NCBI RefSeq assembly: GCF_037081775.1
Contig: NZ_JBAMHQ010000001.1
Span: 1,054,001-1,118,000 of the forward strand
Source of the DNA: Haladaptatus sp. ZSTT2
GTDB lineage: Archaea; Halobacteriota; Halobacteria; Halobacteriales; Halococcaceae
Length of the DNA stretch: 64,000 nt
Direction: 5' to 3'
Shown here: positions 17,996 through 23,135 of the stretch, one piece after another
Layout: every line of letters starts with the position of its first letter
How positions within the stretch are numbered: the first letter of the stretch is position 1
Made by a program: the position numbers and the translations under genes
The notes under the pieces: generated by a model
What the model was told of the DNA's origin: nothing
Databases searched by the model: none
What the model saw: the letters and a program-made list of their open reading frames with translations, nothing else

Positions 17996-19156
17996 TCACT
18001 GGGAGGGTTGTTTCGACGGGCCCGTGACCGCTTCGAGTCGCCGGAGTTCGTCGGGCCGGACGATCGCGTAGATGGTGTCACCGGCTTCGAGAACGTGACC
18101 GCGGGCGGGAATCGCCGTGACGCCACCGGACTGTGGTTTGACGGCGACGACGGTGGTGTCGAGGGTGCCGAGGGTCGTCCCGACGAGCGCACTCGACTCG
18201 TGGACGGTGACCGCCCCCATCGTCTCGTCTGCCACGCGAAGCAGGGAGGCGAACTCGCGGTCTGGCAACGGTTCGGATGGCATCGTGATGAGGCGATAGG
18301 ACTCCTCGGCCGAGAGCCGGTCTGTGTCCGCCGCGTCGACGACGACAGTGACGACATCCTCGACGGCGGCCCTGAGTTCTGCGGCCGTCACGAGTTCCGG
18401 TTCTGGGCCTGACTTCCAGATTTGGACGAGGTCGCCCGCGCTCGCGCCGTGGGCCGGGTCTGCGCGGATGGCGACGGCGGCTTTCCCCGGCGGTAAGGTT
18501 GGCCCGAGTCCGGCCGCTCGACTCCCGATGGCGAAGAACGTGACCGCTCCGCTTTCGTCCAACTCAATGTCGACGTGGCCGACGTTGTAATCTTCTTTCA
18601 GCCGGGAGACGAGACGGGTTTTCAGTTCACCAACGGTGAGCCGACGCGGGAAGACAAGTGAGATACCCGCGAGTTTCTCCTTGGTCGCGTCGTCTACCGG
18701 GTCGTAGCCCTCGATATCTTGGATGTCGTCCGGCAACGTGACCGTAATCGTCCGGCCGACCGATTGGACGAGTTGGCTCATCTCGCGGTTCAGGTCTTTG
18801 ACCCCCGAGATGGCGAAAAATCGCACGGCAAGGTCGTCGCCAATCTGGTGGCCAAGCGACGCGCCGAAGCCGCCGACGACGAACGACGCAATCGTGACGA
18901 TGGCGTTCGTTTCGAGGCCGTCTAAGTTGCCCGCGGTGATGACTTGCTTCAGCGCCAAGTCGGTGTTGAGCCAAAGCGACACCGCAGCGAGGCCAACGAG
19001 AATGGCGACGTTGATGGGGGGTTTCTGGCGGGAGTACCAGCGGTAGACAAACGTGAGCGCGAGCGCACTCGTGAGGGCAAGCAGCCCCATTCCGACGACC
19101 GATAAGAGCGCACTGAGGTCAAACAGCACCTCCAACAGCTCTGAGATGACCGTCAC
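17996..19156 (-). CDS. Membrane protein with C-terminal TrkA-C domain (paralogue 2)
   Basis: The 386-residue protein has three N-terminal membrane segments (about 12-34, 48-66, 84-104), a cytosolic middle domain (about 130-250) and a TrkA-C ligand-binding domain at 300-375 (LPDREFASLLRVAD...). There is no RCK-N Rossmann motif or pore loop, so it is not a channel by itself. The middle domain resembles that of the upstream neighbour (IEGYDPVDDATKEKL against MEGYPPLSADLRKTI), showing tandem duplication. Its start overlaps the neighbour's stop by four bases. A role in gating or sensing for cation transport is inferred from TrkA-C and from the channel next door. Confidence 0.85.
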   Translation of the reverse strand: MTVISELLEVLFDLSALLSVVGMGLLALTSALALTFVYRWYSRQKPPINVAILVGLAAVSLWLNTDLALKQVITAGNLDGLETNAIVTIASFVVGGFGASLGHQIGDDLAVRFFAISGVKDLNREMSQLVQSVGRTITVTLPDDIQDIEGYDPVDDATKEKLAGISLVFPRRLTVGELKTRLVSRLKEDYNVGHVDIELDESGAVTFFAIGSRAAGLGPTLPPGKAAVAIRADPAHGASAGDLVQIWKSGPEPELVTAAELRAAVEDVVTVVVDAADTDRLSAEESYRLITMPSEPLPDREFASLLRVADETMGAVTVHESSALVGTTLGTLDTTVVAVKPQSGGVTAIPARGHVLEAGDTIYAIVRPDELRRLEAVTGPSKQPSQ

Positions 19157-20403
19157 GCGGCCACCTCCGCGAACCCGGCGAGCGCGTCGCGGGTACCGAC
19201 GACGAACAGTTCGTCACCGGCGGCGAGCATCGTCTCGCCGCGTGGAGCGAACACCCACCCGCGTGCGGAGCCGTTGGTGTCCGCCTTCGGAGAGCGCTTG
19301 ACCGCGAGCACCGCTACGTCGTAGGTGCTTCTGACCGCAATGTCGCCAAGCGTCCGGCCGTCGAGGTCACCACCGGTTCTGACAGTGAGTTTCTTGAAAC
19401 GCTTGCCCGCCCGGCGGAGCAGGGAGACGAGTTCGTACTCCCGGCGGGTGCCGCGCGCTTGCGTGACGACGCGCCCGGTTTCGATGCCGAGCAGTTGTTT
19501 TGCGTCCGTGCGGTCTACCGCGACGGTGATACGGCCCTCACCGCCGGTCGTTGTCGGCGCGTGTGGCGCGGGAATCGGGGTTTCGTCGTCTTCTGCGGGC
19601 GTTTCACCCGGTGGCTGGTCGCTACCCCCGTCGGACTGGGCGGCGACGACTGGCCCGGTGACCGAGCCAGCGGTCGTCTGTAACACCACTTCGTCGCCGC
19701 GGGCGACGCCGGTCGGAAGCAGCGCCTCGATCGAGATGGCACGCTTGCCCTTTGGCACCCGGCGGGAGAGTCGGCCACTCGGTGGGGCGGCGTTCACGCT
19801 TGCTTTTGCATTCGCGTCGACGGTCACCGAGACGTCCGCGAGGTCGTGGTCGTTTCGCAGCCGGTCTGCGAGACGGGTTTCGAGTTCCGAGAGCGGGAGG
19901 TCTGGCGGAACGGTGAGTTTCGACTCTTTGATTGTCTTTCTGAGGTCTGCAGACAGCGGCGGATACCCCTCCATGTCGCCAACGGGGCCGACGATATCGA
20001 GTTGGATTTCGCCGCGAACGCCGACGCGATTGAGCACGTCGCGCGAGAGTTTCTGCTCGCGCAGGCGTTTAAGCGAGAGGCGCTTTGGGAACTCCGCGCC
20101 GAGTTTGTCGCCCATCGAGTGGGTGTAGAGCGTAATCATCATCACGACGATGGCGGCGACGAGCAACATTGGCGAACTCTGGACTGCCGGGTCGATAAGC
20201 CCGAGCAGGCCACCGTTGATACCGGCGATAGCAACCCCGAGGGTGACGACACCGAAGCCGGGGAGGGTGACGCCGGTGAAGTATTTGAACAGAAACCCGA
20301 GCGTGAAGGCAATGAGACCGGGAAGCAGTCCCGTCAAGAGCCCGAGGTAGATGCCAAACAGCACCTGAAGTGGAAGGGCCTGAACCATACGTGTCCCACT
20401 CAT
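19153..20403 (-). CDS. Membrane protein with C-terminal TrkA-C domain (paralogue 1)
   Basis: The 416-residue protein has three N-terminal membrane segments (about 10-40, 44-68, 77-95), a middle domain shared with the downstream paralogue (about 115-245), a Pro/Asp/Glu-rich linker (255-285) and a TrkA-C domain (about 320-412). It starts at the ATG at 20403, 82 bp from the ATG of the divergent potassium channel, so the shared spacer can control both. The linker is probably disordered. Function not established; association with the channel is inference. Confidence 0.85.
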   Translation of the reverse strand: MSGTRMVQALPLQVLFGIYLGLLTGLLPGLIAFTLGFLFKYFTGVTLPGFGVVTLGVAIAGINGGLLGLIDPAVQSSPMLLVAAIVVMMITLYTHSMGDKLGAEFPKRLSLKRLREQKLSRDVLNRVGVRGEIQLDIVGPVGDMEGYPPLSADLRKTIKESKLTVPPDLPLSELETRLADRLRNDHDLADVSVTVDANAKASVNAAPPSGRLSRRVPKGKRAISIEALLPTGVARGDEVVLQTTAGSVTGPVVAAQSDGGSDQPPGETPAEDDETPIPAPHAPTTTGGEGRITVAVDRTDAKQLLGIETGRVVTQARGTRREYELVSLLRRAGKRFKKLTVRTGGDLDGRTLGDIAVRSTYDVAVLAVKRSPKADTNGSARGWVFAPRGETMLAAGDELFVVGTRDALAGFAEVAA

Positions 20404-20452: not shown

Positions 20453-20460
20453 TTTATATA
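20453..20460 (+). promoter_or_regulatory. TATA box of the potassium channel gene
   Basis: TTTATATA is centred 28 nt before the ATG at 20485, a very good haloarchaeal promoter box for a leaderless transcript. Confidence 0.65.
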
Positions 20461-20484: not shown

Positions 20485-21657
20485 ATGAACCGGAGGCGCT
20501 CGTGGTACAGCATTCGTCTTGCGATTTTGCTGACCCTCGCAGTGGCGTTGCTGTCGTTTGCGACGGGCGTGGCGAACATCGCGACGCCGACCGTCGTTCC
20601 CGGGCCACTCAGCCCCTACGTCCCCGACACCGTCCAGCAAACGACCGGATTTACGGGCGCGCTCACCGGGTTTTTACTGGTTCTCAGCGCCGTTGGCCTG
20701 CGTCGTGGACTCAGAGCCGCGTGGCTTTCGACGATGGTGTTTCTCCCACTCACCGCAGCACAGGGGCTCCTCCAGTCGAACTCGCTTTCTTTGCCACTCG
20801 TCGCGCTCTCGTTGCTCGCGCTGCCGGTCGTGGGGTTCAATCGAAAGCGCTTCACGCAGGACATCTCGCTGAGCACGACCCAACTGGGTGCGCTCACGGC
20901 GATTATCGGCGCACAGATTTACGGCACCGTCGGCACCTACGCCCTGCGCGAGCAGTTCGGCGGCGTCAACAACCTCACCGACGCCTTCTACTACACGCTC
21001 GTCACCGCGAGTACGGTCGGCTACGGCGATGCGTCACCGACCACGCAGGTCGCCCGCCTGTTCGGGATGAGCGTCATCGTCATCGGCACCGCCAGCTTCG
21101 CCATCGCGCTCGGGTCGGTGCTCGGCCCCGCAATCGAAGCACGCTTCAGCAGAGCACTTGGTATCATGAACGAATCACAACTCGCAACCTTAGAAGACCA
21201 CGTCATCGTCCTCGGCTACGGCGAACTGACCGAACCGATTTTAGAAGAATTACAGGAGACGACCGCGTTCGTCGTCATCGTCCCCGACAAAGAACACACC
21301 ACAGAACTCGCAGAGCGCGACTACAAAGTCATCACCGGCGAGCCATCAGACGAAGACGTCCTCGAACGCGTCGGCATCGACCGCGCGCGAGCGGTGGTCG
21401 CCGCGACCAACTCAGACGCAGAAGACGCCCTCTCGATTCTCACTGCGCGCCAACTCAATCCGAACATCAGAATCGTCGCCGCAGCAACCGAACGCGAGAA
21501 CATCCGGAAGCTAAAACGCGCCGGAGCAAACACCGTCATCAGCCCGGCGGTCATCGGCGGGCACTTACTCGTCCAGTCAGCGCTTGGCCAGCGCGGCATG
21601 GAGGACTTCGCAGACCGCATTCTGGACGTGGACGAAGAGCACACAGACGCCGTCTAA
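20485..21657 (+). CDS. Potassium channel with RCK domain
   Basis: The 390-residue protein has four hydrophobic segments before the pore (about 10-30, 55-72, 80-97, 104-118), an outer helix (135-155), a pore loop with the selectivity filter TVGYGD at 177-182, and an inner helix (192-217). The cytosolic RCK domain starts at VIVLGYGEL (240-248) and has the acidic strand end VVIVPD. The filter indicates K+ selectivity. The extra N-terminal helices are unlike a plain two-helix MthK channel. The ATG at 20485 fits the TATA box; the frame is open upstream for over 600 bases, but only antisense to the neighbouring gene. Confidence 0.93.
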   Translation: MNRRRSWYSIRLAILLTLAVALLSFATGVANIATPTVVPGPLSPYVPDTVQQTTGFTGALTGFLLVLSAVGLRRGLRAAWLSTMVFLPLTAAQGLLQSNSLSLPLVALSLLALPVVGFNRKRFTQDISLSTTQLGALTAIIGAQIYGTVGTYALREQFGGVNNLTDAFYYTLVTASTVGYGDASPTTQVARLFGMSVIVIGTASFAIALGSVLGPAIEARFSRALGIMNESQLATLEDHVIVLGYGELTEPILEELQETTAFVVIVPDKEHTTELAERDYKVITGEPSDEDVLERVGIDRARAVVAATNSDAEDALSILTARQLNPNIRIVAAATERENIRKLKRAGANTVISPAVIGGHLLVQSALGQRGMEDFADRILDVDEEHTDAV

Positions 21658-23135
21658 TCGAGGGCTGGCAACGGGTGCTTGCCGCGGTCGACGATGACGA
21701 CGTCACTTTCGAGTTCGTGAATCCGCTCGAACGTCGGCGGTGAGATGAGCCGCGAGGCCGCAGAGCGGTCGGTGCTCGCGCCGAGGAAAATCGCGTCGTA
21801 CTGCGGGGCGTTCGCCGCAAGGAAGGTTTCGATGGTCGCCCGCGAGACCCGCGTTTCGAGGTTGCCTTCGAAGGCATCGACGAGGTCTGCGAGCATGTTC
21901 TCTGCGGCGCGGCGTTGGTTGGGCGCAGTGATACAGTTAGCCACACTCACCCGACCCGTGCGCCCGGCCAACCGAAGGCCGAAGTCAATCATCGCGTGGG
22001 CCACGTCGCTTGGCTGGCGGATGGGGACGAGAATGTGCTTCCACCGGGTTCGCCCACCAACAGAGCGGTGGACGGCCACGTCAACCTCGCTGCGAAACAG
22101 TGTGCGGACGAACGGCGACAGCGCGCCGTGTCGCTCTTCGTAGGGCGTGACAATCAGGTCGCAGTTGGTCGATTGTGCCGTCTGGATGACCGTCTGTGCG
22201 GGCGAGTTGCCATCCACTGCGACGACGACTTCCACGGGAACCCCAACTTTCGTCCGGAGGCGATTCGCCCACGCCTCCAAGTCGGCCGCGGCATCGGTTG
22301 CGGCTTTCGTCTCCGCCTGTTCTTCGAGGCTCTGTTCTTCGCCGCCGTCGGTGAGCACCTGTGCGTCGTGGTCGAGCAGTTCGGCTTCGGCCGCCGCGAT
22401 GGCTTCGTCGTCCACGATATCGAGGAGAACGACCTTCCCCGCGTCGTGGGCCGCAGCGAGGCGCGCGCCGAACATGGCAGAGGTCTCCGGCTGTGCACCC
22501 CGCATCGGGACGAGAACGTGGTCGTCGCCTTTCGTCGATTGATACAGGAATCGGGCTCTGCGCTCGTAGAACTGCTGTTTCCAGAAGACGAACGCGAGGG
22601 CGACGATTGCACTGGAGGCGGCAACCGAGAGGACGTAATCGAACTGGGTCGAACCAGCGACGAGGGTGAGCAGCGCAGTCGAGAACGCAGAGGGTTCTTC
22701 GATGTCGAACACCCACGTCGAAAGCGCCGTGAGAAAGATGCCAAGCCCGGCGCTTATCGCACTGACCGACTGGCCAGTCGGCGCTGGCGTGAACGGGCTG
22801 ATGGCGACGAGTTCGAACGCGCCCCAGCCACAGAGCGCGCCGATGGTGAGTCCGGCGACGAACTTCCCGGGCTTCGAGTACTTTCCTTCGGGGTCTGCAA
22901 ACAGCGTGTAGGTGCCAGCGGCGAGTGGGGGGAACAGGAGGAACGAGAGTTGTTCGAGCGAGTTCGAGATGGCGGTAACGGTGGCAATGAGTAACGGGAC
23001 GAGGACGACAACCGTGAGGTGAATCAGGTTGCGCGTACTCTCGACCCAGCGTCTGAGGTCTCGAATCCGGCGGCGCTCTAACCGCCGAAACCGAGCGTAG
23101 TAGGTGGCAGCGCGTTTCCGCACCGTATCGAGCAT
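21654..23135 (-). CDS. HPP-family membrane protein fused to two UspA domains
   Basis: The 493-residue protein has a basic N-terminus, four or five membrane segments of HPP type (about 38-205, with FLLFPPLAAGTYTLF) and two universal-stress (UspA-like) domains at about 215-355 and 365-490. HPP proteins include nitrite transporters in plastids and cyanobacteria; the fused form is frequent in haloarchaea but its substrate is unknown. I chose the ATG at 23135 because the first helix follows it. It converges with the channel gene (stops overlap four bases). A role in ion or anion homeostasis under stress is inference. Confidence 0.85.
   Translation of the reverse strand: MLDTVRKRAATYYARFRRLERRRIRDLRRWVESTRNLIHLTVVVLVPLLIATVTAISNSLEQLSFLLFPPLAAGTYTLFADPEGKYSKPGKFVAGLTIGALCGWGAFELVAISPFTPAPTGQSVSAISAGLGIFLTALSTWVFDIEEPSAFSTALLTLVAGSTQFDYVLSVAASSAIVALAFVFWKQQFYERRARFLYQSTKGDDHVLVPMRGAQPETSAMFGARLAAAHDAGKVVLLDIVDDEAIAAAEAELLDHDAQVLTDGGEEQSLEEQAETKAATDAAADLEAWANRLRTKVGVPVEVVVAVDGNSPAQTVIQTAQSTNCDLIVTPYEERHGALSPFVRTLFRSEVDVAVHRSVGGRTRWKHILVPIRQPSDVAHAMIDFGLRLAGRTGRVSVANCITAPNQRRAAENMLADLVDAFEGNLETRVSRATIETFLAANAPQYDAIFLGASTDRSAASRLISPPTFERIHELESDVVIVDRGKHPLPALD

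Follow-up and report, generated by a model that had tools for sequence, protein, structure and literature searches.

The window analysed here, a stretch of 64,000 nucleotides from a haloarchaeal genome of 3.23 Mb, contains two overlapping genes on the minus strand and, divergent to them, a potassium channel gene on the plus strand. We refer to the products of the pair as P1 (P0001) and P2 (P0002), and to P0003 as the channel. The open reading frames of P1 and P2 were recovered at the coordinates given by a first-pass annotation of this DNA, and the features of the locus are as follows.

17996..19156, minus strand: P2 (P0002), 386 aa, a paralogue of P1 with identical architecture
18023..18223, minus strand: P2 RCK-C, residues about 312-378 (Pfam 30.9 bits; VIA-align MthK and PH0236)
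18278..18493, minus strand: P2 beta-barrel, RcpC-like, residues about 222-293 (VIA-align RcpC 9gzr_A)
18521..18757, minus strand: P2 alpha/beta domain with EGYDP...LKTRLVSRL, residues about 134-212
18809..19117, minus strand: P2 membrane part, three helices, residues 14-116 (AlphaFold2; charges)
19153..20403, minus strand: P1 (P0001), 416 aa as read, with three membrane helices, alpha/beta domain, barrel and RCK-C
19159..19401, minus strand: P1 RCK-C (TrkA-C), residues about 335-415 (Pfam 46.1 bits; VIA-align KhtT)
19453..19749, minus strand: P1 beta-barrel, RcpC/CpaB-like, residues about 219-317 (AlphaFold2; weak RcpC Pfam matches in the family)
19786..20013, minus strand: P1 alpha/beta domain with EGYPP...LETRLADRL, residues about 131-206
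20092..20376, minus strand: P1 membrane part, residues 10-104 (AlphaFold2 helices; charges that point to a C-terminus inside)
20453..20460, no strand assigned: TATA-like TTTATATA in the divergent spacer, conserved in a sister genome
20485..21657, plus strand: potassium channel P0003, 390 aa, with membrane helices, pore and RCK-N, no RCK-C
21013..21030, plus strand: TVGYGD selectivity filter, residues 177-182
21202..21546, plus strand: channel RCK-N / TrkA_N, residues 240-354 (Pfam 110 bits)

P1 and P2 overlap as a pair, as had been claimed, by 4 bp (GTGA, 19153-19156). The spacer between P1 and the channel, previously put at 82 bp, measures 81 bp if the ORF limits are taken as read. The true start of P1 is probably Met6 (the sixth codon, 20388), because the sister genome, 92-94% identical, has no start codon upstream of that methionine; from this start the spacer would be 96 bp. 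The TATA-like element in the spacer is a possible shared promoter of P1-P2 and the channel.

We examined the pair in two samples of haloarchaeal loci, the first comprising 59 loci from 58 genomes and 43 genera, and the second 80 named loci from genomes shared in part with the first. P2 lies directly after P1 at every locus of both samples (59 of 59 and 80 of 80). Of the 136 junctions that could be read, 63 have a 4-bp overlap and 14 a 1-bp overlap. In a search of their own genome P1 and P2 matched each other (27%), and profile-profile comparison of the two families (29 P1 and 29 P2 homologues) gave a probability of 99.9% across 339 columns. Thus P1 and P2 are paralogous over their whole length.

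TrkA_C, for which both proteins pass the cut-off of 27 bits, is the sole Pfam family above cut-off in P1 and P2; at E <= 10 it was listed for 29 of 29 P1 and 28 of 29 P2 family members. Neither protein has an Ion_trans or a TrkA_N match in Pfam. The AlphaFold2 models (mean pLDDT 82.5 for P1 and 89.0 for P2) begin with three membrane helices, at residues 10-43, 50-75 (broken) and 78-104 in P1 and at residues 14-42, 48-73 and 81-116 in P2, followed by a beta-beta-alpha-beta-alpha-beta-beta domain that carries the EGY motif, a beta-barrel, a helix and RCK-C. As the pTM values are low (0.39 and 0.44), the relative placement of domains in these models is unreliable. Pfam and AlphaFold2 agree with the order read in the first-pass annotation (membrane part, middle, TrkA-C, with no pore and no RCK-N), and its motif, EGYxP...LxTRLxxRL, is kept in both families as EGY(P/D)P...L.TRL..RL; what it described as a single new middle domain is in fact two, the alpha/beta domain and the RcpC/CpaB-like beta-barrel. 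Among the 29 members of each family, the loop between helices 1 and 2 and the segment after helix 3 are richer in K/R in both P1 and P2, the loop between helices 2 and 3 is richer in D/E in both, and the N-terminus is richer in D/E in P2 only. This distribution of charges fits a predicted topology with the N-terminus outside and the C-terminus inside.

The C-terminal domain is readily recognized. P1 RCK-C matches KtrA 4xtt (6.8e-10), PH0236, KtrC, KhtT and MthK in sequence; its fold best matches KhtT (Z 14.2, rmsd 1.6, 84 aligned; VIA-align), and that of P2 RCK-C matches MthK and PH0236 (Z 12.0 each), such that the fold matches for the pair include KhtT, MthK and KtrA. Most of the RCK-type matches are limited to residues 319-416 of P1 and 295-383 of P2, and in MthK the match to the P1/P2 profile begins where the crossover ends and extends through RCK-C. 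By VIA-align, the P2 barrel fits onto RcpC of the Tad pilus (9gzr_A; Z 8.2, rmsd 2.1, 79 aligned, 23% identity). Weak Pfam matches to RcpC (PF16976) occur in 14 of 29 P1 and 4 of 29 P2 members, with best E of 0.0006-0.001; the family is not listed by Pfam for the P1 and P2 of the window, and the P2 profile also matches the SMUBP-2 barrel (2.7e-5). We treat the RcpC likeness as a lead, as a Z near 8 can reflect a common arrangement. No family was found for the alpha/beta domain, which was barely probed by VIA-align, the match lists being filled by RCK-C.

The channel facing the pair has the TVGYGD filter attributed to it earlier, and TrkA_N as well. Its Pfam content is Ion_trans_2 and TrkA_N, after which only a short tail follows RCK-N; the first-pass annotation was silent on the missing RCK-C. 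An RCK-C profile built from P1/P2 gave no significant match in any of 170 channels (best E 0.089), and TrkA_C was absent among the 25 families listed for 38 channels. We therefore regard the channel as RCK-N-only, whether or not a genome has the pair. P0003 itself, with a K+ filter and RCK-N and no RCK-C, is an RCK-N-only K+ channel; it scores 215.9 bits against NF007828 (Kch), below the equivalog cut-off of 425 bits. The RCK halves at the locus are thus complementary, the channel having RCK-N without RCK-C and P1/P2 having RCK-C without RCK-N. Convergent with the channel, with overlapping gene ends, is a gene on the minus strand (21654-23132) whose product joins an HPP-type membrane protein to a universal stress protein domain. 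A second channel paralogue, roughly 40-46% identical, is present in several genomes (e.g. at L246).

The channel is adjacent and divergent to P1-P2 in 53 of 59 loci of the first sample; the exceptions are L041, L046, L055, L081, L083 and L091, and the genome of L091 has, besides this second copy, one that is linked to the channel. In the second sample the channel lies beside the pair in 76 of 80 loci, including two with a broken channel ORF (L173 and L196); the exceptions are L124, L148, L195 and L198. The pair is therefore found mostly with a channel in other genomes, and in five genomes where it is unlinked the channel is located elsewhere in each. In two genomes (G001 and G007) the channel gene has the same orientation as P1 and is in tandem with it, with P2 next in G001; adjacency thus survives a change of orientation. 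Other neighbours in the 59 loci are MoaD (49), PNP (42), HPP-Usp (41), asparaginase (30) and GNAT (29), counts which are only partly comparable with that of the channel, as distant genes can fall off a locus.

Across 242 genomes of the class, P1 matches at E <= 1e-5 were found in 211 and true P1 (E <= 1e-70) in 193; the genomes left out comprise nine with weak matches only (E >= 1e-11) and nine with only a second clade (E 1e-35 to 1e-51). A channel orthologue (E <= 1e-100) is present in 193 of the 193 genomes with true P1 and is kept in 44 of the 49 without it, where G130, which has only a 41% channel paralogue, was scored as having no orthologue (P = 2.9e-4 by Fisher's exact test, uncorrected for relatedness). 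Thus the pair goes with the channel, not the channel with the pair. Among the matches listed for 392 genomes of the phylum, those over the full length of the profile were all in the order of the window, and those outside that order were RCK-C-like stretches only. We conclude that P1, P2 and the channel constitute a real and widely conserved haloarchaeal system.

Within this system the pair is dispensable and has often been lost from genomes that retain the channel, as indicated by retention of the channel in most pair-less genomes and by repeated switches between presence and absence of the pair: on a channel tree of 103 of the 170 sequences, retained after clustering, such switches number at least 11 if supported branches are counted and 18 on the best tree. 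Remnants of P1 or P2 lie beside the channel in three genomes (G134, G123 and G072, at L114, L220 and L235); these may represent loss in place or contig-edge effects, an edge being possible for G123 and G072. At several pair-less loci MoaD adjoins the channel across a short gap.

About 30 of the 242 genomes (an approximate count) encode a diverged second pair, P1'-P2', away from P1-P2. In the nine loci with both of its genes (L202-L210), no K+ channel adjoins it; its neighbours include DUF7382, DUF7310, DUF7311, ATPases of the HerA/DUF87 and T2SSE types, or ParA/MinD together with DUF7125 and DUF7857. This is possibly a membrane or secretion locus. P1, P2, P1' and P2' form four groups in the tree, separated with the fewest possible changes. 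This fits duplication of the pair as a unit, which in turn argues that P1 and P2 work together. The second pair should also be taken as a warning that, as it occurs without a channel, the module is not tied to channels by nature.

We searched for a specific tie between pair and channel at the level of sequence evolution. Among 206 channel positions scanned, none tracks the pair in phylogenetically independent comparisons. V173, L209, E218, A224 and P354 had appeared to be pair-dependent; the signal was due largely to a single lineage and was gone when independent pairs were compared. The mirror-tree correlation between P1 and the channel (r = 0.744) is close to that between P1 and HPP-Usp (r = 0.747), and thus carries no channel-specific signal. 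With PNP as control the partial correlation of 0.66 looks supportive, but not so with HPP-Usp, GNAT or asparaginase; against g24852, the P1-channel value is the higher (0.731 vs 0.570). We consider the mirror-tree outcome neutral overall. Of the earlier proposal that the proteins are a two-subunit membrane sensor or regulator of the channel, the two-protein unit and the linkage hold, and physical contact and regulation are putative; the regulator idea is plausible and stands up to the survey of gene neighbourhoods suggested with it, yet is unproven.

The analysis directly shows the domains of P1 and P2, their paralogy and obligate pairing, a strong link to the channel in gene order, and RCK halves that complement each other. 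The reading we prefer, to which we assign a probability of roughly 0.5, is that P1 and P2 form a heteromeric, membrane-anchored accessory regulator which offers RCK-C in trans to its neighbour, a Kch-like channel with RCK-N only. It is the simplest reading to fit the linkage, the one-way dependence and the complementary RCK halves. We infer heteromer, contact, regulation and direction of effect along the following lines. P1 and P2 would assemble into one membrane-bound heteromer, with the N-terminus outside and the C-terminal domains in the cytosol, their own helices anchoring these accessory subunits in the membrane. Their RCK-C, together with the helix found ahead of RCK-C in MthK, would dock against or beside the RCK-N layer of the channel and would change pore opening on a cytosolic cue, possibly a ligand in the RCK-C dimer or in the RcpC-like barrel, or osmotic or ionic strength. 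As many genomes keep the channel without the pair, the channel must also work alone. More tentatively, we envisage a split-RCK machine in which the channel gives RCK-N, the membrane-embedded P1/P2 heteromer gives RCK-C and an RcpC-like sensor barrel from the side, and the module has also been duplicated beside a locus of HerA/secretion-ATPase type. If so, a prokaryotic RCK channel would have in this pair an accessory subunit that is both optional and anchored in the membrane.

The first-pass annotation could not place the pair in a described system, which is too strong: RCK-C is an ordinary domain, and two-subunit rings and RCK-C-only regulators are known, in soluble form. P1 and P2 differ from these in having membrane helices. 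MthK resembles P1/P2 in that RCK-C and the preceding helix align, but combines pore, RCK-N and RCK-C in a single chain. Gating-ring proteins of the KtrA/TrkA type are soluble and carry RCK-N in the chain, whereas P1 and P2 have three predicted helices and no TrkA_N. With RcpC/CpaB of the Tad pilus there may be a likeness in the barrel, that of P2 superposing on RcpC; here, however, the barrel is predicted to be cytosolic, and no pilus genes were seen at the locus. E. coli Kch is like P0003 in having a pore and RCK-N and no RCK-C, although P0003 falls below the NF007828 cut-off, and we know of no comparable membrane RCK-C pair for Kch. Kch is described with free RCK domains in passages of PMC4565861, so an RCK-N-only channel is no proof of a missing partner. 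In TM1088A/TM1088B of Thermotoga maritima, an RCK-N-only protein and an RCK-N/RCK-C protein form one soluble TrkA ring, as passages of PMC4380455 describe. Similarities to P1/P2 are the two overlapping genes, control of K+ flow, and an RCK-N-only part with an RCK-C carrier (hetero-assembly being seen in TM1088A/B); on the other hand, according to the same passages, TM1088A and TM1088B are both soluble proteins, the latter bears an RCK-N of its own, and the pore belongs to a Trk transporter. At the present locus the channel protein takes the place of the RCK-N-only part, and RCK-C is carried by membrane proteins that lack RCK-N. KhtT (7agv, 7ahm), described in part of PMC10117811 as a soluble RCK-C regulator of an antiporter (the K+/H+ antiporter KhtU), is the best VIA-align match to P1 and likewise has RCK-C without RCK-N and is encoded with a transporter. 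It is, however, a soluble single protein with an antiporter partner and binds c-di-AMP, whereas P1/P2 have three membrane helices and no c-di-AMP signature.

Three other explanations need to be weighed against the accessory-subunit reading. It is possible, though on balance improbable, that P1/P2 work as a membrane sensor in their own right, for K+, salt or a nucleotide, act on another target, and share with the channel only promoter and regulation. Such a sensor would suit the diverged second pair, found away from K+ channels and near ParA/MinD, HerA or T2SSE-type genes, the persistence of the channel without the pair, the lack of co-variation between channel residues and the pair, and a barrel that resembles RcpC, itself no channel protein; it sits poorly with the 193 genomes in which true P1 never occurs without the channel, and with the adjacency kept after the orientation change in G001 and G007. 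We think it unlikely that P1/P2 are c-di-AMP receptors which relay a nucleotide signal to the channel, as KhtT does to KhtU. In fold and in sequence they come closest to RCK_C domains that bind c-di-AMP (KhtT, KtrA 4xtt, BusR, CpaA-type), and the host genome encodes a diadenylate cyclase domain; in Haloferax volcanii, according to passages of PMC6741144, DacZ and c-di-AMP are essential, with targets unknown. However, the signature of such RCK_C domains, given in part of PMC10117811 as (I/L)(I/L)x2DxRx5N(I/L)(I/L), was found in 0 of 142 P1 and 0 of 136 P2 homologues, with the KtrA positive control matched; the position of the signature Asn is Ala in 91 of 113 readable P1 homologues, and the Arg segment is absent from P2. 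Very unlikely, finally, is an inherited gene order without function, maintained by slow rearrangement of the three genes, for although MoaD, PNP and other unrelated genes are often nearby too, channel linkage (53/59) exceeds that of the next neighbour, MoaD (49/59, the counts being partly comparable), and adjacency is kept despite the change of orientation.

Haloarchaea balance molar salt with molar internal K+, and to our knowledge the control of their K+ channels is little described. If the accessory-subunit reading is true, a removable RCK-C pair beside an RCK-N-only channel would be a natural experiment on the role of each RCK half, and the pair would be a candidate for sensing osmotic or nucleotide signals in archaeal cells. 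A literature search, with most subscription papers outside its scope, found no description of the P1/P2 pair in haloarchaea; the main text of PMC8305020 makes no mention of TrkA or potassium, and the passages of PMC4339784 that report seven trkA-type genes in Haloarcula marismortui do not describe the pair.

Copy number and gene structure vary at a few loci. A P1-P2 fusion at L196 was considered as a sign of joint function and rejected: the start of P2 is missing and the channel in that metagenome contig is internally deleted, so the fusion looks like a misassembly. Local tandem duplication has produced P1-P2-P1-P2 beside the channel at L087 and, in the same arrangement, at L200 of Halorientalis salina (L088 was left out, being the same locus as L087), and in Salinigranum salinum (L180) the order is P1-P1-P2.
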